From IMG/VR virus record IMGVR_UViG_3300021963_000138, positions 1 to 61,432 of that record: a stretch of DNA of 61,432 bases, one strand, 5' to 3'. Source of the stretch: a virus. Of this stretch, positions 6,270-41,740 are shown piece after piece (within the stretch, counting starts at the first letter, position 1; each line of letters opens with the position of its first letter). The notes beneath the pieces are model-generated. The model was not told the origin of the DNA. It was given only the letters and a program-made list of their open reading frames with translations, and ran no database searches. The translations under genes and the position numbers were made by a program.

Positions 6270-9200
6270 TTACGACATAAACATGTCTGTGCTCATTGCT
6301 CTTAATCCCCTTAACTGATTTGCATTCAAATCTACGCTTTCTCTATTTAAGGCAATTAATTGACCCATCTGTATATTTAACATTTCTAAACTTGCTACTA
6401 CCGCATTTAGACTCGATACTCCTCCGGCACTAGGGGCTCCCGAACCGGTGGCAGTATTTCGAACAGTTTGGGTTTCGACTACCGAACTTGCAGTAGTTGA
6501 TGCAGTAGTAGAAGGTGCTGGTGTTGGTGTTAATGCTGTTCTGGCGGTGTCTGTACTAGGAACATTTGAACCTGGATTGCTTAACAATGCCATTATGTCT
6601 TGTTGTTCTTTGCCAAATCTATTTACTACACCTGCACGCTCGTTGGGCTTACTCTTGCCAAAATGCTTCTTTCCATCATCCGCTCCCCTTTCTGCATAAA
6701 CAGCTTTTACCAATTGTTCGTCTGTCATGCCTGGCTTGAACACACTGTTAAAGATTCCCATCGCTCCACTAGGGCCGTGTTGTACAGCAGTACTATATAA
6801 CATTTCCTGAAGAGCTCGACTACCGTTAATTCTTGACTGTAGACCTTGATCTTTTAAGCCTTTTAAAGCCGTTCCGTATCCTTGTCCTAAAAATTCATTT
6901 TCGCTGTTGCCTAACGCACCGCTGGCTGCAACTTCTTTCCACACATCAACTGCTTTACCGCTGGTACTGCCAGTGTCTTTTTCTATGCCTGCATCACGTA
7001 ATTTTTTAGCAACATCTCCTTTTCCTGTTTTTTCAAGGAATTTAAGAAAATCGGTCATTGCTCCGGCTTTGGATGAAATTTGTTTTTTACCGTAGCTAGT
7101 GCCGCCACTTTTATCCCATCCAACAGTTCCGCTGCCTCGGCCTGCTGATTCGTATTTTTCTGCTATTGCTCCTAGACCTGTACCAATTGCAGATGCTCCA
7201 GGTACTTGTGGTACTGGTGCTGATCCAGATGTTGTTCCAGACGGAGGAGCAACCTGAGGAGCTCCTGATCCTCCTGCTCTCATTGCTTTAAAGGAATTAT
7301 ATAATGCCTGTGGGCTGCTAAAATCCAATCCAGGTTTCTTATCTTTTGCGCTAGCTTCTTCTTCTGCTTTTTTTGCAGCATCAAGTTCGGCTTTCTTTGC
7401 ATCAGATAATTCTTTGGTAGTAGTTGTTAGTCCTTCTTGTATTTTTTTACTATTTGCTGCCAATCGAGCTTCTATTTCTCTCTTTTTCTTTTCAGCGTCA
7501 GCTAATGCTTCTGCTGATTCAGCAGCATATCGATCTTCTCTATTTTTTGCTTTGGCTATAGAAATTGCTTCTATTTGGGCTTTTAGTTGTGCCCTTAAAG
7601 TTTTTTCCAGTTCTTTAGCATCTGCTGTCGCTTCTGTAGTTGATGAAGTACCAGTTGCTGGGTTTGATATACCTGCGCCGGGTGCGGCAGATCCAGTCTT
7701 TCCAGTCTTGGCGTTTAGATATGCTGTTTCTGAGGCTATTCTCTCACTTCTCGCTTGATTAGCCATATTAGTAAGACCAACAAAACTCCCTATATTTTCT
7801 ATTGTTCTAGCTAGACCAGATTGCGCTTTTTCGAGCAGATTCGCTTGCTGCCAATTTTTTTCATCTTGGTCTTCATCAATTTCATTTCCACCAACACCAA
7901 GTGCACCAGCAGCAGCATCAATAACATAACTACCACCAACTACTACGGCAGCTGTTGTTGCAGCAGTTTTGGCAGTTTCTAAAACTTTACCACCAGCTCC
8001 ACCACCGCCTTTACCACCTTTACCACCTTTACCACCTTTATCTAACAGGCCACCACCGTTTGCATCTCGAACATACAAAGCATTTAACGGAGTAGATCCC
8101 CGTTGAGCCATTTTAAATTCTTTAATGGCCAGTGCGCCTTTAAACAATATGGATGCTATTTTCATTGCACCTAATAGTATAGTGACGTTTTCAATATTAT
8201 CCATTAAGAATTTAAATGCTGGCATTACCCAATTTTCAACAAAGCCGGCCAGTTTCTTAAATGCTGATTCTAATTCCGGCAAATATTTTGCCACAGATTG
8301 AGTAATTCTGTTATTAAGTTCAGCAATTAACTGTTGGAATCTTTGTAGTTGTGCAGGATCTAATCCGTCTTTAGCCGCTGCTTGATCCTGAGCACGTTTT
8401 CTAGCTGCTGCTTGTTCTGCTTCTGACTGTTTTTTAATTTCTTCTAAGTTGGTTTTTTGTGCGGCAATATTTAAATTATCTAATACTAGTCCTTGTTGAA
8501 TATTATTACCTACGTTAGCATATAAATCAGAAATTCCAGCATTATTAACAGCTCTAGCTTCTGCTCTATATGTTTTATCTAAATTGTTAAGAGATGCCTG
8601 AGACACTGTGCCTGTTTGTTGTATCTCTCGATACATTGCATTTGCACCACCTGCTGATTTTTGCATCAAAGTGGCAAATTCTCTTCCGTGGTCGCTGGTA
8701 GCATTTCCAAATGCAATATATTCTTTCATGCCTTTTTGTGCAGTTGGCCCCAACGTTCTCATGTACTGTGTAAGTCTTTCTGCACCTTCAGGATCCATCT
8801 TTGACAGTCTTATACGATAGGCAGCATCAGCCATTAAGGCATCTTGTTCAGCTTTAAGTGCATCTTTGCTTTTGCCTGTCAATTTAGACAGTTCATCCAG
8901 ATTCTTTAGATAAGTTGCACTGCCTGCAACCAGTTGTTCATCAGTTTGTCCTTGCAATTTTCCAGTCTTAGCAAGGATTCCAACATACTGAGCCATTCCG
9001 CTATTAATGTCTTCAGTGCTATATCCTAATCTAGCCAAATCATCATTTAACGGATTTTTTCGAATCTTGGACCCAAGTTCGGCCAATCGTCTAGCACCAT
9101 CACCTGCGCCTTGACCTAATAAAGCTATTGATTCACCGTTCTTTGCAATCACTCCAGCAAATTGATCAAAAGTCATGCCAGCACTGGTAGCAGAATTGAT

Positions 9201-9776
9201 CATGTCATTGATACTACCACCGAAGTTTGCACCTACGCTAGATGCCTGCTGAAATGCTTTGTAAGTTCTCTCACCTGCTTGAGCAACGACTCCGAAAGTA
9301 CTAGCCAACATGTTTCCAACTAATGGAATTGCACTCATGGCTTGTGCAGCTGAACCCATGCTAGAGTTCAGATTGCTGAATGTTCCCATCGTTTTAGTTA
9401 GATAGCCAACTGCGCCTTCTAGCGAGTCATTAAAAAGATCAACTGCCTTAATTGTATTGTTTAAAGATTTGATCTCTTCTTTAAGAGCTTTTGTAGTTTG
9501 CTCTACAGCTTCAACTTTTCGTCTTTCGGCTTCGTCTGCTTTCTTTTGAGCTTTGGTTGCAGCATCTAGTGCGTCAGTTTGTTTTTTGGAAGCGGCTGCT
9601 AGTTTTTTTAATTCTTTTTCAAGTTCTTGTTTTGATTTAGCCTGTGCCGCTTTGTCTTTGCCAGTGTTATTGGCAATAACGGTCATGGCCGCAAGAAGCT
9701 GCTTTAATGTTGCCTCTGTGGCCGCATTGTTTAATTGTATTGGCTGACCGCCAAAATCACCAGTAACTTCTGCCAT
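6270..9776 (-). CDS. Tail tape measure protein with C-terminal VgrG3-like lytic domain
   Basis: A 1168-residue tape measure candidate. Residues 40-125 are charged coiled coil, followed by a long helical body. Hydrophobic stretches lie near 515-560 and 597-628, separated by a Gly/Lys run (GGKGGKGGKGGGG). A second coiled coil spans about 740-830. Residues about 862-1070 carry IAEKYESAGRG, GGTSYGKKQISS and AVQHGPSGAMGIF, the signature of the glycoside-hydrolase domain at the C terminus of VgrG3-type spikes; Glu in KYES (near 872) is the likely catalytic acid. It probably opens the peptidoglycan during DNA entry. Its divergent neighbour is the gp26/gp51 chaperone, the usual partner of tape measures. 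T4's own tape measure, gp29, is not recognisably similar, so the role is inferred. Confidence 0.8.
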   Translation of the reverse strand: MAEVTGDFGGQPIQLNNAATEATLKQLLAAMTVIANNTGKDKAAQAKSKQELEKELKKLAAASKKQTDALDAATKAQKKADEAERRKVEAVEQTTKALKEEIKSLNNTIKAVDLFNDSLEGAVGYLTKTMGTFSNLNSSMGSAAQAMSAIPLVGNMLASTFGVVAQAGERTYKAFQQASSVGANFGGSINDMINSATSAGMTFDQFAGVIAKNGESIALLGQGAGDGARRLAELGSKIRKNPLNDDLARLGYSTEDINSGMAQYVGILAKTGKLQGQTDEQLVAGSATYLKNLDELSKLTGKSKDALKAEQDALMADAAYRIRLSKMDPEGAERLTQYMRTLGPTAQKGMKEYIAFGNATSDHGREFATLMQKSAGGANAMYREIQQTGTVSQASLNNLDKTYRAEARAVNNAGISDLYANVGNNIQQGLVLDNLNIAAQKTNLEEIKKQSEAEQAAARKRAQDQAAAKDGLDPAQLQRFQQLIAELNNRITQSVAKYLPELESAFKKLAGFVENWVMPAFKFLMDNIENVTILLGAMKIASILFKGALAIKEFKMAQRGSTPLNALYVRDANGGGLLDKGGKGGKGGKGGGGAGGKVLETAKTAATTAAVVVGGSYVIDAAAGALGVGGNEIDEDQDEKNWQQANLLEKAQSGLARTIENIGSFVGLTNMANQARSERIASETAYLNAKTGKTGSAAPGAGISNPATGTSSTTEATADAKELEKTLRAQLKAQIEAISIAKAKNREDRYAAESAEALADAEKKKREIEARLAANSKKIQEGLTTTTKELSDAKKAELDAAKKAEEEASAKDKKPGLDFSSPQALYNSFKAMRAGGSGAPQVAPPSGTTSGSAPVPQVPGASAIGTGLGAIAEKYESAGRGSGTVGWDKSGGTSYGKKQISSKAGAMTDFLKFLEKTGKGDVAKKLRDAGIEKDTGSTSGKAVDVWKEVAASGALGNSENEFLGQGYGTALKGLKDQGLQSRINGSRALQEMLYSTAVQHGPSGAMGIFNSVFKPGMTDEQLVKAVYAERGADDGKKHFGKSKPNERAGVVNRFGKEQQDIMALLSNPGSNVPSTDTARTALTPTPAPSTTASTTASSVVETQTVRNTATGSGAPSAGGVSSLNAVVASLEMLNIQMGQLIALNRESVDLNANQLRGLRAMSTDMFMS

Positions 9777-9802: not shown

Positions 9803-9810
9803 TATAAATA
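9803..9810 (+). promoter_or_regulatory. Late promoter, exact TATAAATA
   Basis: A perfect match to the T4 late promoter, 33 bases before the gp26 start. It lies within a 67-base divergent gap and is followed by a Shine-Dalgarno-like GGAG ahead of the ATG at 9844. Confidence 0.75.
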
Positions 9811-9843: not shown

Positions 9844-10716
9844 ATGCCAGATCAATTCGAACAGAAGCAGCAAAAAAAGCCAATTAACAACCCTCTTGCC
9901 AATTATTTTAGGCAACCAAAATTATACATCCAACTGCCCAGCCATGGAAATTTTTACCCTGAGGGAGCACTGGATTCTAGTCAAAATGATGAATATGCAG
10001 TATTTGCAATGACTGCCAAAGATGAACTCATGTTCAAAACTCCTGATGCTCTTATGAATGGTCAAGCTACCGTTGAAGTTATTAGGAGTTGTGTTCCAGC
10101 AATCAAAGATCCATGGCTAATGCCCAGTATCGATATCGACGCGGTATTGATTGCAATTAGAATTGCATCATACGGTGAGTCAATGGAAGTTAATAGCAGT
10201 TGTCCAGAGTGTGGACATCACAATGAATACAATCTAGATCTTCTGTCATTTTTAGATAAGTCTAACGGCTTTACATATAAAGATACTGTATCAGTTGGGC
10301 AATTAACTATTAAATTACGTCCTTATAACTATAAAGAATTAACTAAGGCAGCAATAAAAACATTTGAACAACAAAAATTAATTTCTATTGTTACCAATGA
10401 AGATCTTTCCGAAGAAGATAAAATTGCCAAGTTTGGAGAAAGTTTTGTTAACCTAACAAGATTAACTGTCGATGTTGTTGTTAATTGCATCGAAAGTGTT
10501 GAAACTCCAGACGGTATTGTTTCCGATAAAGAAATGATTAGAGAGTTTATGGAAAATACTTCTAGTGAAATTTTTAACTTAGTTAATGATCAAGTTAAAG
10601 AAATGAAAGATCTAATGGCTTTAAAGGCTCACGACGTCGAATGTCAAGAGTGCAGTCATAAATTTACTGTTGAGGTTGCTATGGATCAAACAAATTTTTT
10701 CGTAGTAGGATCTTAA
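9844..10716 (+). CDS. 26: Tail assembly chaperone / baseplate hub assembly protein gp26
   Basis: A 290-residue protein of the gp26 type found in T4-like cyanophages, where it is annotated as a hub assembly factor. The N terminus contains NPLANYFRQPKLYIQLPS and GNFYPEG. A four-Cys zinc-ribbon-like pair is visible: CPECGH near residue 121 and CQECSH near 267. The middle is acidic and helical. The end of the gene carries A-AAT-TTT-TTC, a -1 slippery sequence, 15 bases before the stop, and the -1 frame then stays open for 75 codons. It is therefore probably the unshifted product of a G/GT-type chaperone pair serving the neighbouring tape measure. Confidence 0.82.
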   Translation: MPDQFEQKQQKKPINNPLANYFRQPKLYIQLPSHGNFYPEGALDSSQNDEYAVFAMTAKDELMFKTPDALMNGQATVEVIRSCVPAIKDPWLMPSIDIDAVLIAIRIASYGESMEVNSSCPECGHHNEYNLDLLSFLDKSNGFTYKDTVSVGQLTIKLRPYNYKELTKAAIKTFEQQKLISIVTNEDLSEEDKIAKFGESFVNLTRLTVDVVVNCIESVETPDGIVSDKEMIREFMENTSSEIFNLVNDQVKEMKDLMALKAHDVECQECSHKFTVEVAMDQTNFFVVGS

Positions 10717-10740
10717 CTCTTCCTCAGCCGGAGATTCTAC
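10695..10740 (+). promoter_or_regulatory. Predicted -1 programmed frameshift signal
   Basis: In the gp26 frame the codons AAT TTT TTC contain the classic heptamer T-TTT-TTC (10695-10701), with an overlapping A-AAT-TTT. Three bases later, 10705-10712 (GTAGGATC) can pair with 10733-10740 (GATTCTAC) over 8 bp with one G-U, enclosing the gp26 stop codon. Slippery site plus downstream stem is the usual arrangement of tail chaperone frameshifts. The spacer is on the short side. Confidence 0.65.
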
Positions 10741-10928
10741 TTTGGGTTCAGCAGCTGGAAAAAGAGGCCAAGGAAATTAAACGAGATATTTTAAAAATCT
10801 GTTGGTATATGCGTGGCATGAGTTATTGGGAAGCAATGCTGCTCAGTTGGGAGGAAAGGCAATTGATTGGCGAACTCATAAAAGAAAATCTAGAAACAAC
10901 TAAGAAAAGTGGGTTGCCATTCTTCTAA
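10701..10928 (+). CDS. 51: gp51-like chaperone domain in the -1 frame
   Basis: Seventy-five codons open in the -1 frame from the slippery site to TAA at 10926. There is no start codon until ATG at 10809 and no Shine-Dalgarno sequence. The peptide is helical and contains ILKICWYMRGMSYWEAMLLS followed by WEERQLIGELI, the short C-terminal type domain seen in T-like tail chaperones and in gp51 of T4-like phages. Translation by frameshift would give a gp26-gp51 fusion of about 361 residues. The alternative, reinitiation at 10809, would give only about 39 residues and lose the first helix. The terminator begins two bases after the stop. Confidence 0.7.
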   Translation, partial: RSRILTLPQPEILLWVQQLEKEAKEIKRDILKICWYMRGMSYWEAMLLSWEERQLIGELIKENLETTKKSGLPFF

Positions 10929-10929
10929 T

Positions 10930-10955
10930 AAAAAGGACTCCTAGGAGTCCTTTTT
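10930..10955. terminator. Bidirectional rho-independent terminator
   Basis: A perfect 13+13 palindrome: GC-rich core GGACTCC/GGAGTCC flanked by five A on the left and five T on the right. It lies between the convergent gp26/gp51 region and the minus-strand gene ending at 10961, so it can stop transcription from both sides. Confidence 0.92.
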
Positions 10956-14006: not shown

Positions 14007-14435
14007 TTATTGGCCTTTAAGTATATGCGAACCATGTACACGGACAGATATCTGACCGTTATAATAGTCTTTTGATTCTAAAACTTTGTGATTAAATTGT
14101 TCTCTAGCTTCTATGTAAGAGCATTGCGCCTTGGATGTACAGTAAAATAATATGTCTCTACGGAAATTTTCTTTGCCTAATTGTTCCACATCCTTGCTTA
14201 ATTCAACGTTTGACCCGTAATAATCACGCCAATCGCTGTCTATTTTAGAACGTATCTTCTTTTTCTTCTTGTTGCCGTTTTTAAGTTTTACTGTTTTATA
14301 GCTAGTTTTTGAGAATTTGGCTAGTTTTTTGCCTATGTATTTCCTGCCAGTAATATTATTAGTAATAAGATAAACGAATCCTACGCAAGTTTCGGGTAGC
14401 TCTTCTATTAACTGATTTTCATAATACCATGACAT
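14007..14435 (-). CDS. GIY-YIG family endonuclease
   Basis: A 142-residue nuclease. The N-terminal FVYLITNNITGRKYIGKK is the GIY-YIG core, in the variant form VYL..KYIG. A downstream Arg in SDWRDYYGS and Glu in YIEAREQFNHKV match the catalytic Arg and metal-binding Glu of the family. It is a free-standing single-domain enzyme of the type common in T4-like phages as homing (Seg-like) or repair nucleases. Its ATG directly abuts the stop of the upstream small gene (TGAATG), so it is co-translated with the recombination genes. It lies beside an unexplained noncoding block, which may be relevant if it is a mobile nuclease. Confidence 0.88.
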   Translation of the reverse strand: MSWYYENQLIEELPETCVGFVYLITNNITGRKYIGKKLAKFSKTSYKTVKLKNGNKKKKKIRSKIDSDWRDYYGSNVELSKDVEQLGKENFRRDILFYCTSKAQCSYIEAREQFNHKVLESKDYYNGQISVRVHGSHILKGQ

Positions 14436-28003: not shown

Positions 28004-31000
28004 ATGGCAGATAAATTTTTTCCAGATAGTCAACTTCCTATAAGAAAGACAATAGATCTTTTGCCTCAGATTTTTCAAACTGAAGCAAATTCAAAATTTC
28101 TTGCAGGAGCACTAGACCCGTTAGTTCAACCGGGCGTCTTAGAAAAAAAAGTAGGATATCTAGGTAGAAGATATGGTAAAACCTACAAATCTAGTGAAGT
28201 TTACCTAGACACTGATCAAACTTTACGCAGTAGGTATCAATTAGAACCCGGTGTTGTTGTAGAAAAAGATGGCAAGATTGAACAGTTTTACGATTATCTC
28301 GACTTTAAAAATCAATTAAAGTTTTTTAATAACACTGAAGAGCGAGACGATCTAATCACAGCTCAAGAACACTATACATGGGCTCCTCCCATCGATTGGG
28401 ACAAATTTGTAAACTACAGAGAATATTATTGGGTACCAGACGGTCCACCGCCTATTAAGATTCTAGGCCAGGCACAAAATATTATCAGCACCTATCGAGT
28501 TGGACTCGGCGCCGGCAGTGTTTATATTTTTACCCCAGACGGACTAACAAATAATCCTACATTAACCTTGTATCGTGGACAAACATACAAGTTTCAGGTC
28601 AATGTTCCGGGAAATCCTTTATTGTTTAGAACTACTATTGACACTGGAACGTTATTATATAATCCTGATTTTCAATATTCTATCGGACAACTTGTGGTAT
28701 TCGACGGAAAGTTGTGGAAGGCAAAAACCAATATAACTACCGGAGACGGAAGCACCATTGACGAAAATACAGACGATTGGGAATTTGTTGATTTCACAGC
28801 AGCCTCGTCGTCTGCATTAAATTATACAAAAGGTTTAACCAATGCAGGAATTGAAAACGGAACAATCACTTTTGAAGTTCCCTTAAATGCTCCAGATGTA
28901 TTGTATTATCAAAGTTTTACAGATCCAAATAGATTTGGTAGAATTATTATTACCAATGTAGAAGAAAATACAAAAATTGATGTTGAAAAAGAAATAATTA
29001 GTAAGACAACCTATACCAGCAGCAACGGAATAACATTAAGCAATGGTATGATTGTTTATTTTGGTGGAAATGTTTTCCCAGAAAAATATTCAGGCAAAAT
29101 TAACAATAACAAATGGGTAGTAGAAGGAGTAGGAGAACGAATTACCTTGACCAATATGGCCAGTTTAATAGTGTCGACTACCTTTTCAGATACTGCCCCC
29201 GAGATATTATTTGACAATGGCGGATTTGATACCCAACCATTTGACGATGCTAGTGCATATCCTGGAAAGAAAGATTACATTACTATTAATCGATCTAGTC
29301 TAGATGCTAATCCCTGGAGCCGATATAATCGCTGGTTCCATCGTGCAGTATTAGACTATGCCCACACTCTAAATAATTCTAATTTTGATGCATCAGAAAC
29401 ATCTCGAGCAAAAAGACCAATCATTGAGTTTAAATCAAATATACAATTGTTTAATCATGGCGCAGTTGCTAAAGATGCTGTTGACTATGTTGATGATTTT
29501 ACAACTGATGCATTTTCAGTTATTGAAGGTAGTACCGGTTATATTGTTGACGGTGAATATCTATTCAACGGAGCAAGACTTTTAATAACCAACGATACTG
29601 ATGCATTAGCCAACAATCAAATTTATATTGTAAATTTTATTACTCATAATAATATTAAACAGATCAGCTTAACTCGCGAATCTACTGTTGATACACAAGC
29701 CGGCGATGGAGTATTAATACGCCGAGGAGTAAAGAATAAAGGAGTTATGTATCACTTTAATGGAGTCGATTGGGTTAAGAGTCAACTAAAGACTTCAGTA
29801 AACCAAACACCACTATTTGATTTATTTGATAACAACGAAGTCAGCTTTGGTGATGTTGAAACATATCCCGTTAGTTCTTTTATAGGAACCCCAATTCTAA
29901 GTTATAAAATTGGGTCTGGCCCAACCGACACCGAGTTGGGATTTAGTGTTAGTTATCTTAATATAGATAACGTAGGCGATATACAATTTAACTTTAATCT
30001 TGACACAGACTCGTTTAATTATAAACTTGATAATGCCAACTACTCTAAAGAAATTGCAACGGGCTATTTAAAGTTTAACAATGACGACACTTTCACCAAT
30101 GCATGGAACACGCTAGATTCTAATTATGTCCAGCCAATAATTGACAGTGTAGATATTGTAGAACCTACAAACGAAATTACTACAACTATGGTTGATTGGA
30201 AGCTGTTAGCCGATAGTGATATTCGTAAAATATTAGTTTATCTAAATGGTGTACACGTTCGGTCAGGTTTTACTAGAACAGAAGGTACGTTTGTATTTGA
30301 TAAACAATTTGCAGTAGGGGACACGGTAGCAATCAAACTATTTGCTAATATTGATCCTGACACCGGCTATTATGAAATTCCGTTGGGATTAGAAAAAAAT
30401 CCTCTAAACGAAAAAATAAAAACATTTACGTTAGGTCAAGCTGCTGACCACATATCTACAGGATTAGAACTGTCTGAAGACTTTAGTGGAATATTTCCGG
30501 GATTAAACAACCTACGAGACATCAGTGGATATCAAACATTAACAAGAAGATTTTTAAAACATTCTAGTCCGTCTCCGTTGTCTATTGCATTATTGTGTAA
30601 TAAAGAAAATAATATTATAAAATCTATTCAGTATGCAAAAAAATCATACACTGATTTTAAAAATAGTTTTATTGCACTAGCATATGAAATATTTTACAAT
30701 CAAACTGCTAATGATTTTGTAGATTCTATTCTAGAAGAAATTAGTAGAACGCAAGATGCAAGTAGACCGTTTGCCGGATCTGATATGATTGGCAGTGGTG
30801 CATATACCGGCATAACTTATACAGTTGAAGATGTAGGAATTAAAACATTTGCTCTGTCAGAAAAGTTTGATTTGCAAACTCTAAGTTCTAGGGCAGTTTA
30901 TGTGTACTTTAATAATCAGCAATTATTAGTAAATCGAGATTACGAATTTAATTCTACATTTGGATTTGTTAATTTAATGATTGACCTAGTAGAAGGAGAT

Positions 31001-34000
31001 GTGATTCAAATTAGAGAATACGCATCGACTGCTATTAACTTTATACCACCTACTCCGACTAAGTTAGGTTTGTACAAAAAATATACTCCTAGAAAGTTCC
31101 TCGACGACACATATGTTGAACCAAAAGAAGTAATTCAAGGGCACGACGGAAGTATAACAATTGCCTATGGTGATTTTAGAGATGATGTTTTATTAGAATT
31201 AGAAACTCGAATTTACAATAATATTAAACAAGAGTATAACGAGTCTGTATTTGACATAGACAGGGTTCTTGGTGGATATTACGGCAACTCGCTCTATGGA
31301 AAACCAGCACTAGACAAGATTATTTCTTCAGAATTTCTAAAATGGATTTCTGGAACAAATATTGATTATGTAAACAACGTATTTTTTGACAGCGAAAATA
31401 GTTTTACCTATACCTATTCTAATATGGTTGATCCCACAGGAACGCAAAACCTGCCAGGATATTGGAGAGAAGTATATAGATGGTTCTACGACACTGATCG
31501 TCCTCACACACATCCTTGGGAAATGTTAGGCTTTAGTGAAATGCCTGTATGGTGGGAAGGTGAATATGGACCTTCTCCGTACACAAGCAATAACTTAATT
31601 CTTTGGGAAGATCTCAGAGACGGTATTATTCGTCAAGGAGAAAGAGCAGGAACTAGAGATAGATATAAGCGTCCGTCAATCATGAGTCATATTCCTGTAG
31701 ATGGAGATGGTAAATTATTAAGCCCGTTAGGTTCAGGACTAGCAGGAAATTTCTCTTTGATTAATAATCAAGGAGCATTTAAAATAGGTGATAATGCTCC
31801 AGTTGAAGCAGCTTGGAGAAAGAGTTCAGAATGGCCGTTTGCAATAATTTCTGCTCTAGCATTGTTAAAACCGTTTGAATTTATTACCGATAATTTTAAT
31901 AAATCTTTTATAGCGACCAACAAGCTAGGTCAGACAATAAATTTAAAAACTAATTTATTTTCTACGCTGAGTGATTTTGTCTATGAGAATACTGTAAATG
32001 CCCCAGTATCTGGATTAGTAGTTTACATTACAAATTATTTAAAGAGTACTACTGCTTCGACGTCTAAATTAGAAGATGTTGTTTCAAATATAAATGTAAA
32101 ACTATCTAATAGAATTTCTGGATTTGTTGATCAACAACAACAAAAATATATTTTAGATAGCAAAAATCCTAAGTCTACATCTAGTAGTGTTTTTGTACCA
32201 CCAGAGAACTATGACATTATTTTTAATGTCAGTGCTCCAATTTTTAATTTAGCCTACAGTGGAGTTATCTTAGAAAAAGTTAATGCTGGTTGGAAAATTT
32301 CTGGATACGATAATTCGACTCCTTTGTTTTATTATTACCAGCCAACTGATTCTCAGTCAGATCCTCTAATTTCAGTAGGCGGCCTAAGTGAAAATTTCTT
32401 AGATTGGACTGAAAACACATTCTATGGCAACGGCGTAATTTGCAGATTTAAAGATAAATTTTATAGATGTCTTAGCAGTCATACAAGCTCAACTGAATTT
32501 TCAGAAGGCACAAACGGGTTAAGTATATGGAAACAGCTACCGTCGTTGCCGCTGACCGGCGCGGTCGAAGCATTTAGAAGAAGAAATTTCAACAAGCTAA
32601 GACTTAGAACTCTATCGTATGGCTCTATATTAAACAGCATACAGCAGGTAGTTGACTTCTTGCTAGGCTATCAAGAATATCTTAAATCTGTTGGATTTAT
32701 ATTTGACGGATATGATACAGCGTCTTCGACATCATTTGATTGGTATACTTCAGCTAAAGAATTTATGTTCTGGTCCAAGCATAACTGGGCCGAAAATTCT
32801 TTACTTACACTTAGCCCTTCTGCAACCTACATAAAAATTAAATTTGCAATAGGTGTTGCTGATAGTATTCTAGACAGCTTTTACGACTATCAAGTTTTGA
32901 AAAACGACGGAAATCCGCTACAGCCAAGATTTATCAATGTGAATAGAGATTTTCAAGAAATCACAGTGTCTACCGCAAACACCACCGACGGTATATATTT
33001 TTTAAGAATGCACTTTGTTCTTAAAGAGCATGTGGTTGTATTCGATGACAAAACAGTTTTTAACGATGTTATCTATGACAAACCAACAGGTTATCGTCAA
33101 GAACGTATCAAAGCTAGAGGATTCCGTACAGTCGACTGGGACGGCGATTATACCAGCCCCGGTTTCTTGTTTGATAATGTAAACATAGCGGTATGGCAAC
33201 CGTTTACTGATTATAAATTAGGAGACATTGTATCCTATAAGTCTTATAATTGGACAAGCAAATACAATCAATTAGGTTCTGTAGAATTTCAAGATGCGGC
33301 ATGGTCAAAACTAGACTCTACTCCTAGCAAGTCGTTAATTCCTAACTTTGATTATAAAATAAATCAGTTTAGTGATTACTACGAAGTAAACACAGACGGC
33401 GTAGGATCTAGTCAACGAGACCTTGCAAGACATGCAATCGGATACCAACAAAGAGAATACCTACAAAATATTGCAGAAGATGAAATTAGTCAGTTTAGAA
33501 TATATCAAGGTTTTATTAGAGAAAAGGGCACAGCAAATGCCATTGTAAAAGTATTTGATAAATTAAGCAGAACACAGGACGACAGTGTTGTTCTTAAAGA
33601 AGAATGGGCTTTTAAAATTGGAGAGTTTGGCGGAACAACTCAAATAGACGAATTTGAATTTGAAATCAAAAAAGATGATCTTGTAATAAATCCTCAACCG
33701 ATATTGTTAACATACAGTACAAATTCGTCAGTGGTCTTGGATCAATACCTAAGAATTAATTCTTCAAAATTTACAACTGCACCTACTCCTTTTACTACAG
33801 ATTTAAATCGCACATCATATTATGACGGCGCTAGTAGATCTGCAGGCTATGTTAACACAAATCATGTTGATTTTATTGTAAAGACTCTAGATGATATTGT
33901 AAATTTAAACATTGCAGATGTTTATGAAAATGCTCACATATGGATAACTTTTTATAATAATGAATGGACAGTATTGCGATATAATCAAGAAGTTGCACTA

Positions 34001-37000
34001 CGAGTAGAGTCTTTGGTAAAAACAGAGTCCAATGTAGAAATAACTCTAAACCAAATACATAATTTTTCAGTTGGTGATGTTGTCGGGTTAAAGTATATTG
34101 ATAATCTTACCGGATTCTTTAAAATTACCGCAACTACAAATAAAACAATTACAGTTATTACCACAAGCACTAATGAACCTGAGATTGTAGATAGTACATC
34201 GGCAACTGTTGGAATTTTTACAATTGCAAGAAAATCGACCTATCAGGAATTAGATAATCAACAAGCTGCATTATTAAATCTTTCATCAAAGTTATGGATA
34301 GATAACAACGGTAGCGACCACTGGGAAGTTATCGAAAAAACTAAGCAGTATGTTACCTATGAGTTAAGTGAGTACGGAATTACTACACCTATAGGAACAG
34401 GCACATCAGTAGTATACATTGACAACCTAAAACAAATTGCAACAGGTATTCCAGGGTCTGGGTATGTAATGATTTATACAACCAAGACTTCCGGTGAAGT
34501 CATTGGTCTAAAGCAAATTGTGCCACCACCGGATGGATTTGAAACTGCGGTTGCTGGTTCGTTCGGCAAAGTCTTGGCAGTTAGTCCAGATTACAAGTGG
34601 CTAGCTGTGGGATCTCCTAATGCCAGCGGTGTAAAGAGCGCATACCAGGGTGAGTTAAATCCGTCTAGGAGTTATCTTGCAGGTGAGATAACACTTTACC
34701 AAGGAAAATTATGGGAAGCAATTGATAACATAGACGTAGGCGACGGTAGCTCTATTAACTTTAACAGTCAAGATTGGAAGCCTGCAACAATAGTTGACGC
34801 TAATCCTGCTGCTAGGGGTGATGGATTTACTGATCAGGGTATGATTTCTCTGTACAAATATAGTCAAGGTCAGTGGGAAATTGCCTACAGTTTTGTAAGT
34901 CCTAGACAGGCCGCCTATGAAGAATTTGGTTCAGCAATCACAATTGGTGTTTCTGGTACAACTTATTATATGGCAGTATCGGCTCCAGGGTCATTATGCG
35001 ATCCTAGCATCGGAGCAAGTACTGGCAAAGGAAGAATTTATCTTTATCAGTTCAACGGAACGACTTGGAGCCATTTAGAAAACACAAAATATCTAGGCCT
35101 ATATCAACCATCTCCTTTGGCAGTATATCCTGCTGGATCAATAGTATGGTCTAATGGTAGTTTATGGGAAGCATTATACGATAATACTGGAGACGGTAGT
35201 TCTCTATCTTTAGAATCAAATGATTGGAAAAAATTAGATCCTATTTCAACTCAATGTTCGCTACCAACAAACATTGCTATAGACGATGACGGCTCTACTC
35301 TAGCAGAGGGATTATTAAGTCCTACTCAGTTAGCTGAGTTGGTTAAAGATGGAGATCAATTTGGTTTCTCTCTTACTATGAGCCGCGATGGGCGACTACT
35401 AGTTGTCGGAGCTCCAAATAGTGATGGTCAATACTTTGCCAACTATCGGGGAGATTGGCATGCTTACCAAGAGTACACAGAAGGCGACGTTGTAAAATAT
35501 CAAAACGGCTATCATAGATTGACCGACGCAACAACATCAACTATTACCAGTCTTGGTCAATATCCAGATGAAGGACTACCTTGGTTAAATGTAGGAGATA
35601 GTGCATCTCCGTCTACAGGCAAAATTTATATCTATGAAAGAGATGCAAACAATCTATATAGTTTGATACAGACTATTACAGCTGACTCGTTATCTGATAT
35701 TAATGATACTGCAAATTCTGGAATTATTGGGTCAGGTGATCAGTTTGGATTTGCTATCGACATTGATGCCTCTGGCACAACTATTGTAGCTAGCAGCCCA
35801 TTGGCAGATATTAACAAACAAAATCAAGGAGCAGCATATGTTTTCAAATACGATGCTGATTCGACCGGTCCGCAATTTAGATTAAAACAAAAATTGCAAA
35901 GTTATGAATACTTTACCAACGAATATTTTGGATCTAGCATATCTATCAGTGCTTCTACAGAACGAATTGTTGTAGGTGCAAAAAATGCAGGATATTCAAT
36001 CTTGGCATTTTTTAATGACGGCACAACATTTGATAGAAGAAGAACTTCTTTTTCTTCTTCTAGAGGATTTCCGGGACAGGTCTACGTATATGAGAGAAAA
36101 GATCAAGGTTATTTCCTAGTTGAGAAACTAGAAGCCGATCTGGTATCCGGCGAATCGTTCGGCTATTCTATTGATTGTACAAGCTCTGTTGTTGTTGTAG
36201 GCTCTCCTACATATCAAGTGGAAGGTGTAGCAGTTGGTATGGTTAGACTGTTTAAAAAATCATCAGAAACAAATAGTTTTAACATAATTTCTCAAGAAAT
36301 ACCGTTGGTAGACGTTGAGTTGTTGCAAAATATTGAACTGTATGACAATGTTAATAATAGAAAAATTGCAGACTTAGATGTAGTTGATGGGTTTAAATTA
36401 AAAATATTAGGAGTTGCTGAACAAGAAATTTCTTTTAAAACAGTATATGATCCTGCAATATATATGATTGGAACAGATGACCAAGTTGTTGACGAATCAC
36501 AACCTTGGTTTGAAAAAAATGTTGGAAAAATTTGGTGGGATCTAAGCACCGTTAAATTTATAAATTATGAGCAGGATGATTTTGCCTATCGAATAGGAAA
36601 TTGGAATAGACAAGCAGAAGGCTCATCGATTGACATTTACGAATGGGTAGAGTCTGTGCTACTGCCGTCGGAGTGGAGCCTACTTGCCGATACAGTAGAA
36701 GGATTGGCCGAAGGAATTTCTGGCCAACCTAAATTTGCCGACAATACTGTATACAATACCAAGATTTTATATAATCCAAATACTGGTCTTGAAACTGGTA
36801 CTTTATACTACTATTGGGTTTCGTCGAAGACTATATTGCCAACAAATAATTCAATTAGACGAATTTCGGCAGCAGCGATCGAAGGCTTTATCGATAATCC
36901 AATTGGGTCTGGAATTCCGTTTATAGGAATACTAGGGACAGACAAATTTTTAGCTTATAATTTAACAGCAATTATTGGCACAGATACAGCACTAGTAAAT

Positions 37001-40000
37001 GTTGAATACACTAAAAATAAAAAACAATTAACACCGATTCATAGAGAGTATCAATTATTGACTAGCGGAGTTGCTGACAGTCTTCCTTCTGAATACTTAG
37101 AAAAGAAATGGATTGACAGTTTAGTAGGATCGGACGAAGCTGGAAATGCAGTTCCTGATCCTAAATTGCCAGTTAAGAAACAACAAGGACTAAGTTTTAG
37201 GCCTCGACAAAGCATGTTTGTTAATAGAGATAAGGCATTAAAGATTGCAATTGACAATATTAATTCTGTACTAATAACTAGACCGTTTGCTGACACGATT
37301 GATTTTAGTAATCTTAACAGACTTGACCCAATTCCAAACGAGGTGTTAAATCAGTACGATTTATCTGTAGACACTCTTATTGATCTAGATCAAGTAGGTA
37401 CAGTAAAAGTTCGTCAAGCAGAATTTACCGCAAATATAATTAACGGCGAAATAGATACAATCGATATCAAAGATGCCGGATTCGGATATAGAACAGTTCC
37501 TTATATAGAGATACAAGGCGACGGGTTTGGAGCTAAAGCAACAATTACCCTAAATGCACAAGGTAAAGTAAACTCTATAAATTTAATTTCTAAAGGTAGA
37601 AAATATACAACAGCTACTATAAAAATAAGACCGTTCTCTGTACTAGTAAGAAGTGATTCTACATTGTTCGGATTCTGGAGTGTATATGCATGGGATCAGC
37701 AACGTAGAATTTTTTACCGCAGTAAATCTCAGGGATATGATACAACAATCTATTGGCAATTTGTAGATTGGTGGCATTCTGATTATTCTATTAATTCTAA
37801 GATTATTAAAGAAATTAATAATATCTATCAAGAACCTACTCTAGAACTTTCTGTGGGCGATCTAATTAGAGTCAAGGAATACGGTAATGGCGGTTGGGTA
37901 GTATTAGAAAAAACTGCCCAAGGTGCCGGCGATTTATTAGACAACTATAATTTAGTCGGTCGTCAAAACGGTACAATGCAGATTAAAGACACTCTTTACA
38001 ATCGATTAATCAACAGCTTAGGCTATGATAATGTGGGATCGTATGATGCAGCATTGTATGATCTGCAACCGACTAAAGAATTAAGAATAATTCTACAGGC
38101 AGCAAAAGAAAATATCTTTGTCGACGATCTAAGAGTTGAGTGGAATAACTTATTCTTCTCCTCAATAAAGTATGCGTTTTCAGAACAGCCTTATGTTGAT
38201 TGGGCATTTAAAACCAGCTTCTTAAATGCAATTCATAATGTAGGCGACCTAGAACAAAAAGCCAATTATAAAAATGATAACTTAGAAAGTTTCCAAAGTT
38301 ATATCGAAGAGGTCAAGCCCTACAGAACCAGTATTAGAGAATATACCAGCAGGTATACTAAAACAGATTCTTCTAATTCAGCGGTATCAGATTTTGATCT
38401 GCCCCCTGCATATTCTGTTAGAGATGGTGCTATATTACCAGTAAATCAATACTATAATAGATTTGATGAATATCCTTGGAAGTCGTGGTTTGATAACAAC
38501 GGCTATTCTATAGTAGCGATTAAAATTGCAGATGCAGGCGCAGACTATCGCACACCCCCAGCGGTGTTGATTACAGGTAATGGTACTGGTGCTACGGCCC
38601 AAGCATTTATATCTAATGGTCGAGTATCCGGTATCAAAGTTATTACTTCAGGCAGCGGGTACACACAAACTCCAACAGTTTCATTAGTTGGCGGAAACGG
38701 AGCTTCAGTTAACGTTGCTCGAGCAGTTCCCATTCTTGGCGAAACAAAAGTTAGATCTTTTGATTTAACAATAAAGTTTGACAGAACAAACAAGATTGGA
38801 ACCTACGAAAATTTTGAATATTCTCAAACTTTTGTTGCCACAGGATTTAGCGCAGTATTTGACCTAAATTACGCTCCGTCTAGAGACAAGGGAAAAATTA
38901 CAGTAATTAAAAATGATCAACTAGTAATTTCGAGCGAATACGAAATTAGCTTGTATATTTCTACTGTGGATAGTTATGACTTATTAAAAGGTAAATTAAA
39001 ATTCTTTGCTAATCCAAACTTAGGTGATGTGATTGTAATTAATTATGAAAAAAATGTTGAATTATTCAATAGCATAGATAGAATACAAAAATCCTACCAA
39101 CCCGTTTCGGGGATGAAAGGCAATAATTTGAACCAGTTAATGACAGGCATTGACTTTGGTGGAGTACAAGTACAAGGTACAACCTTTGATGTAACAGGCG
39201 GATGGGATGCACTTCCGTGGTTTACAGACAGCTGGGATAGTGTAGAATCTAGTAATGATTTTTATTATGTAGCTGACGGCAGTACAACTTTTGTTGTTCT
39301 ACCATATACTCCAGAAAACAATCAGCCAATTTCAGTGTATATTAAACGTCTAGGCGACCAACGTCCAATTAGGATCGACGACCCCAATTATACACCAAGT
39401 TGGGATTCCAGTGTAGCAACTAATCCTCATGCAGAAATGCCAACTTTTATCGGCGATGGATCTACAAACATAATCGAAATACATAGATATTTGAGTACTA
39501 ATTCAGGCGATACACTAATCTTTAGAAAATTAGACAGTGATGGATCTGTAGTAATCAGCGATGTAAACCTATTAGACACACGAATTAGTGGAGGATCATT
39601 ATCAAACATCGGTGGAGCATATGTAACTGCTGCTGGCTTAACTCCTGAAGAAATTGTAATCGACGGAGAAAAATTTGTAAGCCCCGATCAAGTTCCGGCC
39701 CCAGAAGAAAATATTCCTGGTCAAGTATTGGATAGTCTAAGCATCAAAGTATTCAACAAAACCAATCCAGGCGCAACGCCGATACAAAATACAGTTGTTA
39801 TTGGTGATGGTGTTAAGACTAGATTTGACATTGGTCTAACTATTTTCGAAGCATCGTCGGTAATGGTATATGTTAACAAGATAAAACAAGAATACATTGG
39901 TGATAGTACTATTAACTACGTTATAGATTTTGTTGAAAATAAAATTGAATTTAATGATGCACCTGCAGCAGGAGATGTAGTTGAAATTATTGCAATCGGC

Positions 40001-41740
40001 CTTGGCGGAGTCGGCTTATTAGATTATCAGGAATTTGTTGCAGACGGCACAACTAATCTATTCTTAACAAAAGCTGTTTACGATCAAACATCAATAGTTT
40101 TAGTAACGGTTGATGGTATAGCCATAGATGTGGGATTTGTTAATAGTTCAGATTTTATTGATACTAAAAACAGAACAATGATACAGTTCGGTTTAACGCC
40201 CTCATTTAGACAGGTTGTAAAAATTATTTGTTTCAGCGCAGAAGAGGGTGCAGATTCGGTTAACTCTTCATTTATTAGAGTTAATCAACATACGGTACCG
40301 TTTGATGGAAGTACAAGAGCTATTGATTTAGATAACTTTGTAAATTTGGAACAAGCATCAGAAACTGCTTCTATATTAGTAAACATTAACGGAAATTATC
40401 TACAAGGATTAGATACTACCTATATCGAATATGATGGCACTAATAACGAAATAACAGTAGGCGTTGATCCGGCAGAAACAATCGGTACAATCACTTCCGG
40501 AAATGTTAGGGTGTATATTAACAATATCCGACAACAGTTTGTTATTGATTTTACCTATAACGGAAACAACAATTTAATCAGCATACCTGTCTCAAATTTA
40601 GAGTTAGGTGATGTGATTAGAATAGAAACTGATGTTAGATCAAAATATTCAATTGTTGGTAATTCTGTTGTAATAGATGACAGCGTTCAACTAGCAATCA
40701 ATGACAATATACAGATAACATGGTTTAGTCAGTATCCTACAATGAATATTATTTCAGACGAATATACCGGCGGCAAACTACAATATAGATTGCCGAGAGA
40801 TCCGTTAGATATTAATTATGTTTGGGTTTATAAAAACGGAGTACGTTTAACTAAGGATGCAGATTATAGTTTATCACAGTCTTCAATTATATATCTAACT
40901 GAAAAATCAACAAGTTCTGACGTTATTAAAACTGTACAATTTAGTAATATAATTTATTCCAGCAATAGAGCGTTTGAAATCTTTAAAGATATGTTAAACA
41001 ACTATCATTACAAGCGATATTCTAGAGATGTAGCAGTTAAGTTAGCTAAAGATTTAAATTATTTTGATACTTCAATGGAAGTATTAAATGCCAATAAATT
41101 ATCAACTCCTATTTTTAACAGAAAAATTCCAGGAGTGGTGATTGTTAATAATGAAAGAATTGAATATTTTGAAAAGAATGGAAACGTTCTATCTCAATTG
41201 AGAAGAGGTAGTCTAGGTACAGGTATTGCTGAATTGCATCCTGCTAACAGTTTTGTGGTAGATGTTGGATCTACAGAAACTTTACCGTACACCGAAAATC
41301 AAGAAAAGTCTAATTTTATCAGCGATGGCAGTACATTATTAATCGGACCTTTAGAATTTACTCCAACAAAATCTAATAGAAATAATTGGTACAAAGAATC
41401 GATTCCGGACAGTTATGGCCCTTGCGATGAAATTGAAGTATTTGTGGGCGGAAAACGCCTCCGCAAAAATCCTATAGATGTTTATTCGGAAGCAAACGGA
41501 GCTAGCAGTCCTAGTTCTGATGTTGTGCAAGAAGCTGAATTTTCAGTAGATGGAACGTCGACTTATGTACGATTAACAGAACGAGTACCTGCAGGCACTA
41601 GAATAACAATTATTAGAAAATTAGGAAAAATTTGGTATGAGAAAAGTGATTTTGCAGCCAGTAAAGGCATTACGCTGTTGTCTAACAACACGCCTATTGC
41701 TAGTTTCATTGCTGTAAAGACCACTGAGCTGCCCGAATAA
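28004..41740 (+). CDS. Giant 4578-residue virion protein with FG-GAP propeller and CBM-like modules
   Basis: A single uninterrupted gene of 13.7 kb at the place of gp7-gp10 baseplate genes in T4. The N terminus (FFPDSQLPIRKTIDLLPQIF) resembles large structural proteins of marine T4-like phages. About six 45-residue modules with the pattern Y-x-G-x-x-V-x-Y-x-G-x-x-W...W are seen near residues 219, 1466, 1728, 2219, 2367 and 2484; they resemble CBM5/12 chitin-binding modules. Six FG-GAP-like blades (such as FGFSLTMSRDGRLLVVGAPN) lie near 2187, 2308, 2453, 2582, 2642 and 2719. Two GSGY-type Gly-rich modules lie near 3160 and 3510. It is probably a baseplate wedge or large fibre with glycan binding. 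No catalytic motif was recognised. Confidence 0.8.
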   Translation: MADKFFPDSQLPIRKTIDLLPQIFQTEANSKFLAGALDPLVQPGVLEKKVGYLGRRYGKTYKSSEVYLDTDQTLRSRYQLEPGVVVEKDGKIEQFYDYLDFKNQLKFFNNTEERDDLITAQEHYTWAPPIDWDKFVNYREYYWVPDGPPPIKILGQAQNIISTYRVGLGAGSVYIFTPDGLTNNPTLTLYRGQTYKFQVNVPGNPLLFRTTIDTGTLLYNPDFQYSIGQLVVFDGKLWKAKTNITTGDGSTIDENTDDWEFVDFTAASSSALNYTKGLTNAGIENGTITFEVPLNAPDVLYYQSFTDPNRFGRIIITNVEENTKIDVEKEIISKTTYTSSNGITLSNGMIVYFGGNVFPEKYSGKINNNKWVVEGVGERITLTNMASLIVSTTFSDTAPEILFDNGGFDTQPFDDASAYPGKKDYITINRSSLDANPWSRYNRWFHRAVLDYAHTLNNSNFDASETSRAKRPIIEFKSNIQLFNHGAVAKDAVDYVDDFTTDAFSVIEGSTGYIVDGEYLFNGARLLITNDTDALANNQIYIVNFITHNNIKQISLTRESTVDTQAGDGVLIRRGVKNKGVMYHFNGVDWVKSQLKTSVNQTPLFDLFDNNEVSFGDVETYPVSSFIGTPILSYKIGSGPTDTELGFSVSYLNIDNVGDIQFNFNLDTDSFNYKLDNANYSKEIATGYLKFNNDDTFTNAWNTLDSNYVQPIIDSVDIVEPTNEITTTMVDWKLLADSDIRKILVYLNGVHVRSGFTRTEGTFVFDKQFAVGDTVAIKLFANIDPDTGYYEIPLGLEKNPLNEKIKTFTLGQAADHISTGLELSEDFSGIFPGLNNLRDISGYQTLTRRFLKHSSPSPLSIALLCNKENNIIKSIQYAKKSYTDFKNSFIALAYEIFYNQTANDFVDSILEEISRTQDASRPFAGSDMIGSGAYTGITYTVEDVGIKTFALSEKFDLQTLSSRAVYVYFNNQQLLVNRDYEFNSTFGFVNLMIDLVEGDVIQIREYASTAINFIPPTPTKLGLYKKYTPRKFLDDTYVEPKEVIQGHDGSITIAYGDFRDDVLLELETRIYNNIKQEYNESVFDIDRVLGGYYGNSLYGKPALDKIISSEFLKWISGTNIDYVNNVFFDSENSFTYTYSNMVDPTGTQNLPGYWREVYRWFYDTDRPHTHPWEMLGFSEMPVWWEGEYGPSPYTSNNLILWEDLRDGIIRQGERAGTRDRYKRPSIMSHIPVDGDGKLLSPLGSGLAGNFSLINNQGAFKIGDNAPVEAAWRKSSEWPFAIISALALLKPFEFITDNFNKSFIATNKLGQTINLKTNLFSTLSDFVYENTVNAPVSGLVVYITNYLKSTTASTSKLEDVVSNINVKLSNRISGFVDQQQQKYILDSKNPKSTSSSVFVPPENYDIIFNVSAPIFNLAYSGVILEKVNAGWKISGYDNSTPLFYYYQPTDSQSDPLISVGGLSENFLDWTENTFYGNGVICRFKDKFYRCLSSHTSSTEFSEGTNGLSIWKQLPSLPLTGAVEAFRRRNFNKLRLRTLSYGSILNSIQQVVDFLLGYQEYLKSVGFIFDGYDTASSTSFDWYTSAKEFMFWSKHNWAENSLLTLSPSATYIKIKFAIGVADSILDSFYDYQVLKNDGNPLQPRFINVNRDFQEITVSTANTTDGIYFLRMHFVLKEHVVVFDDKTVFNDVIYDKPTGYRQERIKARGFRTVDWDGDYTSPGFLFDNVNIAVWQPFTDYKLGDIVSYKSYNWTSKYNQLGSVEFQDAAWSKLDSTPSKSLIPNFDYKINQFSDYYEVNTDGVGSSQRDLARHAIGYQQREYLQNIAEDEISQFRIYQGFIREKGTANAIVKVFDKLSRTQDDSVVLKEEWAFKIGEFGGTTQIDEFEFEIKKDDLVINPQPILLTYSTNSSVVLDQYLRINSSKFTTAPTPFTTDLNRTSYYDGASRSAGYVNTNHVDFIVKTLDDIVNLNIADVYENAHIWITFYNNEWTVLRYNQEVALRVESLVKTESNVEITLNQIHNFSVGDVVGLKYIDNLTGFFKITATTNKTITVITTSTNEPEIVDSTSATVGIFTIARKSTYQELDNQQAALLNLSSKLWIDNNGSDHWEVIEKTKQYVTYELSEYGITTPIGTGTSVVYIDNLKQIATGIPGSGYVMIYTTKTSGEVIGLKQIVPPPDGFETAVAGSFGKVLAVSPDYKWLAVGSPNASGVKSAYQGELNPSRSYLAGEITLYQGKLWEAIDNIDVGDGSSINFNSQDWKPATIVDANPAARGDGFTDQGMISLYKYSQGQWEIAYSFVSPRQAAYEEFGSAITIGVSGTTYYMAVSAPGSLCDPSIGASTGKGRIYLYQFNGTTWSHLENTKYLGLYQPSPLAVYPAGSIVWSNGSLWEALYDNTGDGSSLSLESNDWKKLDPISTQCSLPTNIAIDDDGSTLAEGLLSPTQLAELVKDGDQFGFSLTMSRDGRLLVVGAPNSDGQYFANYRGDWHAYQEYTEGDVVKYQNGYHRLTDATTSTITSLGQYPDEGLPWLNVGDSASPSTGKIYIYERDANNLYSLIQTITADSLSDINDTANSGIIGSGDQFGFAIDIDASGTTIVASSPLADINKQNQGAAYVFKYDADSTGPQFRLKQKLQSYEYFTNEYFGSSISISASTERIVVGAKNAGYSILAFFNDGTTFDRRRTSFSSSRGFPGQVYVYERKDQGYFLVEKLEADLVSGESFGYSIDCTSSVVVVGSPTYQVEGVAVGMVRLFKKSSETNSFNIISQEIPLVDVELLQNIELYDNVNNRKIADLDVVDGFKLKILGVAEQEISFKTVYDPAIYMIGTDDQVVDESQPWFEKNVGKIWWDLSTVKFINYEQDDFAYRIGNWNRQAEGSSIDIYEWVESVLLPSEWSLLADTVEGLAEGISGQPKFADNTVYNTKILYNPNTGLETGTLYYYWVSSKTILPTNNSIRRISAAAIEGFIDNPIGSGIPFIGILGTDKFLAYNLTAIIGTDTALVNVEYTKNKKQLTPIHREYQLLTSGVADSLPSEYLEKKWIDSLVGSDEAGNAVPDPKLPVKKQQGLSFRPRQSMFVNRDKALKIAIDNINSVLITRPFADTIDFSNLNRLDPIPNEVLNQYDLSVDTLIDLDQVGTVKVRQAEFTANIINGEIDTIDIKDAGFGYRTVPYIEIQGDGFGAKATITLNAQGKVNSINLISKGRKYTTATIKIRPFSVLVRSDSTLFGFWSVYAWDQQRRIFYRSKSQGYDTTIYWQFVDWWHSDYSINSKIIKEINNIYQEPTLELSVGDLIRVKEYGNGGWVVLEKTAQGAGDLLDNYNLVGRQNGTMQIKDTLYNRLINSLGYDNVGSYDAALYDLQPTKELRIILQAAKENIFVDDLRVEWNNLFFSSIKYAFSEQPYVDWAFKTSFLNAIHNVGDLEQKANYKNDNLESFQSYIEEVKPYRTSIREYTSRYTKTDSSNSAVSDFDLPPAYSVRDGAILPVNQYYNRFDEYPWKSWFDNNGYSIVAIKIADAGADYRTPPAVLITGNGTGATAQAFISNGRVSGIKVITSGSGYTQTPTVSLVGGNGASVNVARAVPILGETKVRSFDLTIKFDRTNKIGTYENFEYSQTFVATGFSAVFDLNYAPSRDKGKITVIKNDQLVISSEYEISLYISTVDSYDLLKGKLKFFANPNLGDVIVINYEKNVELFNSIDRIQKSYQPVSGMKGNNLNQLMTGIDFGGVQVQGTTFDVTGGWDALPWFTDSWDSVESSNDFYYVADGSTTFVVLPYTPENNQPISVYIKRLGDQRPIRIDDPNYTPSWDSSVATNPHAEMPTFIGDGSTNIIEIHRYLSTNSGDTLIFRKLDSDGSVVISDVNLLDTRISGGSLSNIGGAYVTAAGLTPEEIVIDGEKFVSPDQVPAPEENIPGQVLDSLSIKVFNKTNPGATPIQNTVVIGDGVKTRFDIGLTIFEASSVMVYVNKIKQEYIGDSTINYVIDFVENKIEFNDAPAAGDVVEIIAIGLGGVGLLDYQEFVADGTTNLFLTKAVYDQTSIVLVTVDGIAIDVGFVNSSDFIDTKNRTMIQFGLTPSFRQVVKIICFSAEEGADSVNSSFIRVNQHTVPFDGSTRAIDLDNFVNLEQASETASILVNINGNYLQGLDTTYIEYDGTNNEITVGVDPAETIGTITSGNVRVYINNIRQQFVIDFTYNGNNNLISIPVSNLELGDVIRIETDVRSKYSIVGNSVVIDDSVQLAINDNIQITWFSQYPTMNIISDEYTGGKLQYRLPRDPLDINYVWVYKNGVRLTKDADYSLSQSSIIYLTEKSTSSDVIKTVQFSNIIYSSNRAFEIFKDMLNNYHYKRYSRDVAVKLAKDLNYFDTSMEVLNANKLSTPIFNRKIPGVVIVNNERIEYFEKNGNVLSQLRRGSLGTGIAELHPANSFVVDVGSTETLPYTENQEKSNFISDGSTLLIGPLEFTPTKSNRNNWYKESIPDSYGPCDEIEVFVGGKRLRKNPIDVYSEANGASSPSSDVVQEAEFSVDGTSTYVRLTERVPAGTRITIIRKLGKIWYEKSDFAASKGITLLSNNTPIASFIAVKTTELPE

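Follow-up and report, generated by a model that had tools for sequence, protein, structure and literature searches.

Comparative evidence for a predicted −1 ribosomal frameshift at the end of a T4-type gp26 gene in a jumbo-phage group

The abstract of Vladimirov et al. reportedly describes frameshifting as conserved in several T4-like groups, and T4 itself as using genes 26 and 51. A 2016 review had presented the lambda G/GT frameshift as widely conserved 'except T4' (PMC5009743). Vladimirov, Gautam and Davidson (Virology 2022, 566:9-15) then reported which genes of T4-like phages encode the TACs, and the central interpretation offered below has therefore already been published. Two later papers relay parts of the same study: PRFect (PMC10885494) reports from it that in some T4-like phages the short form and the fused long form each have their own gene, and the Adele paper (PMC12846349) refers to it when describing polyT slippery sequences of T4-like TAC-N genes. 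The jumbo-phage clade, the conserved hairpin and the GenBank mis-annotation described below were not found in the literature searched, in which the study of Vladimirov et al. figured through its title and citing papers.

The DNA analysed here, hereafter the window, is a 61,432-nt viral stretch (IMG/VR record IMGVR_UViG_3300021963_000138) that carries a gp26 gene ending in a slippery heptamer (Table 1). We propose, from comparison of related loci, that a programmed −1 ribosomal frameshift very probably makes two chaperones of the tape measure protein from this gene: TAC-N, which is gp26 itself, and a less abundant TAC-NC fusion. The gp26 product matches PF12322 with an E value of 8e-24 and 84.9 bits, which passes the curated cut-off of 24.5, and matches phrog_150, 'baseplate hub', with an E value of 4e-25; 359 gp26 relatives are present in IMG/VR. 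A Foldseek search with the gp26 model returned T4-like baseplate hub proteins from BFVD and zero significant matches from the PDB.

Table 1. Features of the gp26 locus, in window coordinates.
Feature	Position	Strand	Basis
Divergent 1168-aa neighbour (candidate tape measure protein; VgrG3-like C-terminal domain)	6270..9776	-	PF21277, E 3e-26
TATAAATA, T4-type late-promoter-like box 5' of gp26	9803..9810	+	Only copy in the window
gp26 / TAC-N, 0 frame, 290 aa	9844..10716	+	PF12322 and phrog_150 matches
Slippery heptamer T TTT TTC	10695..10701	+	In frame; kept in relatives; synonymous sites frozen
−1 frame extension, TAC-C, 77 codons and stop TAA (10926-10928)	10695..10928	+	No stops in relatives, pN/pS, alignment, AlphaFold2
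Spacer, 6 nt to the conserved stem core (3 nt to the full stem in the window)	10702..10707	+	
5' arm of putative stimulatory stem; conserved core 10708-10714	10705..10714	+	Pairs with 10731-10740
3' arm of putative stimulatory stem; conserved core 10731-10737	10731..10740	+	Covariation, RNAalifold
Palindrome AAAAAGGACTCCTAGGAGTCCTTTTT immediately 3' of the −1 stop codon; may be a bidirectional terminator	10930..10955	.	Sequence

The box 5' of gp26 corresponds to the core of the T4 late promoter. The 61 kb contain one copy, vs 8.7 expected from shuffles, and the box is found at most 80 nt 5' of gp26 in 49 of 67 relatives. The divergent neighbour is similar to a protein of RaK2, likened by the depositors of that record to a tape measure protein, making it a candidate for that role by sequence; its VgrG3-like domain is a possible cell-wall enzyme. 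Downstream, the −1 frame occupies the region from the gp26 stop to the palindrome, which an automatic terminator scan did not report. Elsewhere in the window, a SegE-like GIY-YIG endonuclease domain (14007-14435) adjoins a gene for a gp46-like exonuclease subunit, and a single ORF at 28004-41740 encodes 4578 aa.

In the 0 frame, gp26 ends with AAT TTT TTC GTA GTA GGA TCT TAA, the stop occupying 10714-10716. The T TTT TTC that this contains is a standard X XXY YYZ heptamer lying in frame, as the preliminary description had stated, and no other in-frame TTTTTTC occurs in the main ORFs of the window (18,848 codons). Conservation of the heptamer and the −1 frame in related phages, the check named in that description, was assessed in 80 gp26 loci kept from an IMG/VR scan (53-98% identity): all 80 carry TTTTTTC, 19-25 nt 5' of the gp26 stop, and an open −1 frame. 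The heptamer and the open frame are also present in all ten named jumbo phages (Phosso, Atu_ph07, PA5oct, PAC2, BF, GAP32, CBB, Vibrio 2.275.O, XbC2 and RaK2), at ~32-36% identity, and each of 86 distinct cyanophage-like and Mimasvirus-like loci contains the heptamer. It also occurs in cyanophage S-SSM7 and in phiAS5, whose downstream ORF is annotated as gp51 or hub assembly catalyst, and Rhizobium phage RL2RES has TTTTTTG at the site.

The nucleotides of the site are held fixed. Among sequences less than 95% identical (n=48), synonymous variation is zero at AAT, TTT and TTC and mostly ~0.3-0.7 at neighbouring codons, and Asn precedes both Phe in 47 of the 48. Across the jumbo, cyanophage-like and Mimasvirus-like loci, the codon 5' of TTT TTC varies (AAT, CAT, AGT, TAT, CGT, GAT, TCT, GCT, GGT) and encodes N, H, S, Y, R, D, A or G, yet it ends in T in every case, which is unexplained by protein sequence alone. 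An overlapping second heptamer, A AAT TTT, is almost as fixed in the window's family, and two loci (L032 and L035) have lost it while retaining T TTT TTC. A GAGGT at 10672 was considered as an upstream Shine-Dalgarno-like stimulator and set aside, being ~20 nt 5' of the heptamer.

Protein-coding, purifying selection is evident in the −1 frame. Past the gp26 stop, it contains no stop in 2992 codons of the relatives, vs 253 and 243 stops (~8%) in the other two frames; its pN/pS is 0.27, vs 1.26 and 1.35, and differences among relatives concentrate at its third positions. Its length in the 80 relatives is equal within about a codon, the exceptions being two contigs that end. The encoded peptide, FFRSRILTLPQPEILLWVQQLEKEAKEIKRDILKICWYMRGMSYWEAMLLSWEERQLIGELIKENLETTKKSGLPFF, has no match in Pfam or PHROGs, and its AlphaFold2 model is all-helical (pLDDT 90.6), with chance matches only in a Foldseek search of the PDB. 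The frame is open as first described, with 77 sense codons in place of the 75 then counted. The first ATG, GTG or TTG after the heptamer is the ATG at 10809, codon 39, with no Shine-Dalgarno nearby, which bears out the earlier remark that the frame has no start signal. An open −1 frame, without its own start and selected at the protein level, is the arrangement of a G/GT-type system.

Downstream of the heptamer lies a stem-loop that covaries across relatives and is a putative stimulator. In the window the stem begins three nucleotides after the heptamer, where an 8-bp stem had been proposed, and comprises 10 bp; RNAalifold recovers its inner 7 bp, which puts the spacer at 6 nt. The window stem alone is not stabler than shuffles (z 0.15, or -0.57 with a shorter segment). 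The mean downstream folding z is -2.0 in the window's family, vs -0.05 upstream, and -2.3 in the cyanophage-like group, vs +0.4 upstream. Across 37 relatives, 89.5% of cells are paired, vs 33-50% with the partner slid. One stem pair exchanges between GC (18) and AU (15), and another changes from GC to AU and GU. Covariation scores 0.220, vs a shuffled mean of 0.139, a value reached in 0/500 shuffles, although kinship among the sequences can inflate this result. In S-SSM7, 12 bp pair perfectly, beginning 4 nt past the heptamer, and some jumbo phages show the hairpin less clearly.

That the slip occurs, how efficient it is and that its products act as chaperones are what we infer in the following scheme. 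Most ribosomes would stop at the gp26 stop codon and release TAC-N, while a minority would pause at the hairpin, slip one base back on T TTT TTC and read to 10928. The resulting TAC-NC would consist of gp26 to codon 286 followed by a helical C-terminal domain, 75 residues past the two phenylalanines common to both products. In a parallel to lambda G/GT, TAC-N may coat the tape measure protein and TAC-C may recruit tail tube subunits, after which both would leave.

Several other origins of the second frame can be weighed against this scheme. TAC-C might be an independent small gene, expressed by internal initiation or by coupled re-initiation at the gp26 stop, and GenBank does annotate the downstream domain as a separate gene in Phosso, BF, GAP32, CBB, XbC2 and S-SSM7. 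In the distant Cygsa01 (L106, 1072-1982), moreover, the TAC-C domain lies in the −1 frame with no heptamer, and a TAATG overlap there suggests coupled re-initiation instead of slippage; since Cygsa01 keeps the domain without the heptamer, the frameshift device appears replaceable in some lineages. In the window, however, a start at codon 39 would cut most of the long first helix, and 29 of 44 relatives have an equally late first ATG, at codon 38 when numbering starts from 0. Conservation of the −1 peptide begins at FFR, 5' of any possible start, and an independent gene would leave the frozen synonymous sites at TTT TTC unexplained. We regard this origin as very improbable for the window, and the separate-gene annotation of TAC-C in several jumbo phages as very probably false.

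Slippage of RNA polymerase on the run of six T could also produce a fused product, and slippage on T runs occurs in bacteria. Six T is short for efficient slippage, though, the final C and the X XXY YYZ phase are fixed, and a covarying hairpin at ribosomal spacing would have no role, leaving a transcriptional origin less probable still. The single-contig metagenome origin of the window might further raise the suspicion of a sequencing error or a decayed gene, which is the least probable reading of all and is refuted by the relatives, as the same break recurs in ~80 of them and in isolated, independently sequenced phages. Neither of the two findings named beforehand as contrary to the frameshift, an own start with a ribosome site for the second frame or loss of the heptamer with the downstream domain intact, occurs in the window's clade or in the named jumbo phages. 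The −1 frameshift predicted in the preliminary description is thus strongly supported by the kept heptamer, −1 frame and hairpin, and we consider it, with high confidence, real on comparative grounds.

Each of 13 related viral records (122-378 kb, some of which may be incomplete) has one PF12322 gene and one adjacent TAC-C, so that no separate gp51 gene was found in those 13. Homology between the −1 peptides of the window family and those of the GAP32 group is clear (E 2e-11), and in PAC2, PA5oct and RaK2 (L084, L086 and L092 among the loci) no annotated gene matches the conserved −1 domain. The predicted long form of the tail chaperone is now identified in a large jumbo-phage group for which GenBank shows a false separate gene or nothing, and the site gains a conserved, covarying candidate stimulatory hairpin.

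T4 has two PF12322 proteins, gp26 and gp51, in agreement with the earlier statement that it makes them from separate genes; residues 1-201 of gp51 match the family, and the two proteins match each other by blastp with an E value of 2e-6. T4 gp51 is composed of a complete gp26-like domain and a C-terminal extension, and is encoded separately and divergently. In hhalign comparisons, the cyanophage −1 peptides match the Straboviridae gp51 C-terminus with an E value of 1e-10 (96.9%), with 0/100 column shuffles close. The window family and jumbo peptides match the gp51 extension (residues ~200-249) weakly, with an E value of 0.004 and 0/100 shuffles as good, in a register equal to the cyanophage one (S-x-x-E/S..M/L-x-P/S-x-E-R). 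Given this E value and the same register, the window TAC-C is likely homologous to the gp51 extension, short of proof by sequence; the term 'gp51-like' initially applied to the −1 domain is therefore strong only via the cyanophage versions and weak for the window family itself. On balance we lean towards the view that the gp26 locus already carried the T TTT TTC cassette and its hairpin in the ancestor of essentially all T4-related phages, the jumbo phages of the RaK2/Atu_ph07 type among them, and that T4 and its close kin are derived through gene duplication and fusion. The comparison supports the separate gp26 and gp51 of T4 as a variant of a common short/long chaperone pair, and T4 hub assembly genetics becomes testable within that framework.

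Among described systems, lambda G/GT resembles the arrangement proposed for the window in having a short form and a −1 frameshifted long form, which in lambda is minor. The lambda locus differs in its slippery site, GGGAAAG, and lambda T has no detectable homology to TAC-C; hhalign found nothing between TAC-C and either lambda T or P2 E'. The preliminary description had likened the −1 peptide to the T part of G/GT chaperones. The P2 E/E+E' genes are, like the window's, those of a contractile-tail phage, with a −1 shift close to where a small tail gene ends and the tape measure gene, of which the window has a candidate, next to it. In P2, where the −1 shift is annotated, T TTT TTG stands in the corresponding position. 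P2 differs in lacking detectable sequence homology and in having its tape measure gene downstream in the same orientation. The HK97 TAC (2ob9), aligned by VIA-align over 101/107 residues with a Z of 5.7, was within background and was dropped. The Adele TAC locus (Vandenendeviridae/Andersonviridae; PMC12846349) has, like the window, a polyT slip motif (GTTTTT) and a −1 frame open for >200 bp in all genomes, and its downstream ORF is mis-annotated as a gene, as in the window's relatives; it has another motif, belongs to another family, and is likened here by description. The T4-like TACs, reportedly gp26 as TAC-N and gp51 as TAC-NC (Vladimirov et al. 2022), share the PF12322 family with the window. 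The cyanophage-like and jumbo members have the same T TTT TTC and −1 extension, with a C-terminal extension resembling that of gp51, whereas in T4 and the Straboviridae examined with a separate gp51 (Pm5461, EC-F2) the long form is a separate complete gene, in place of the one gene and predicted frameshift of the window.
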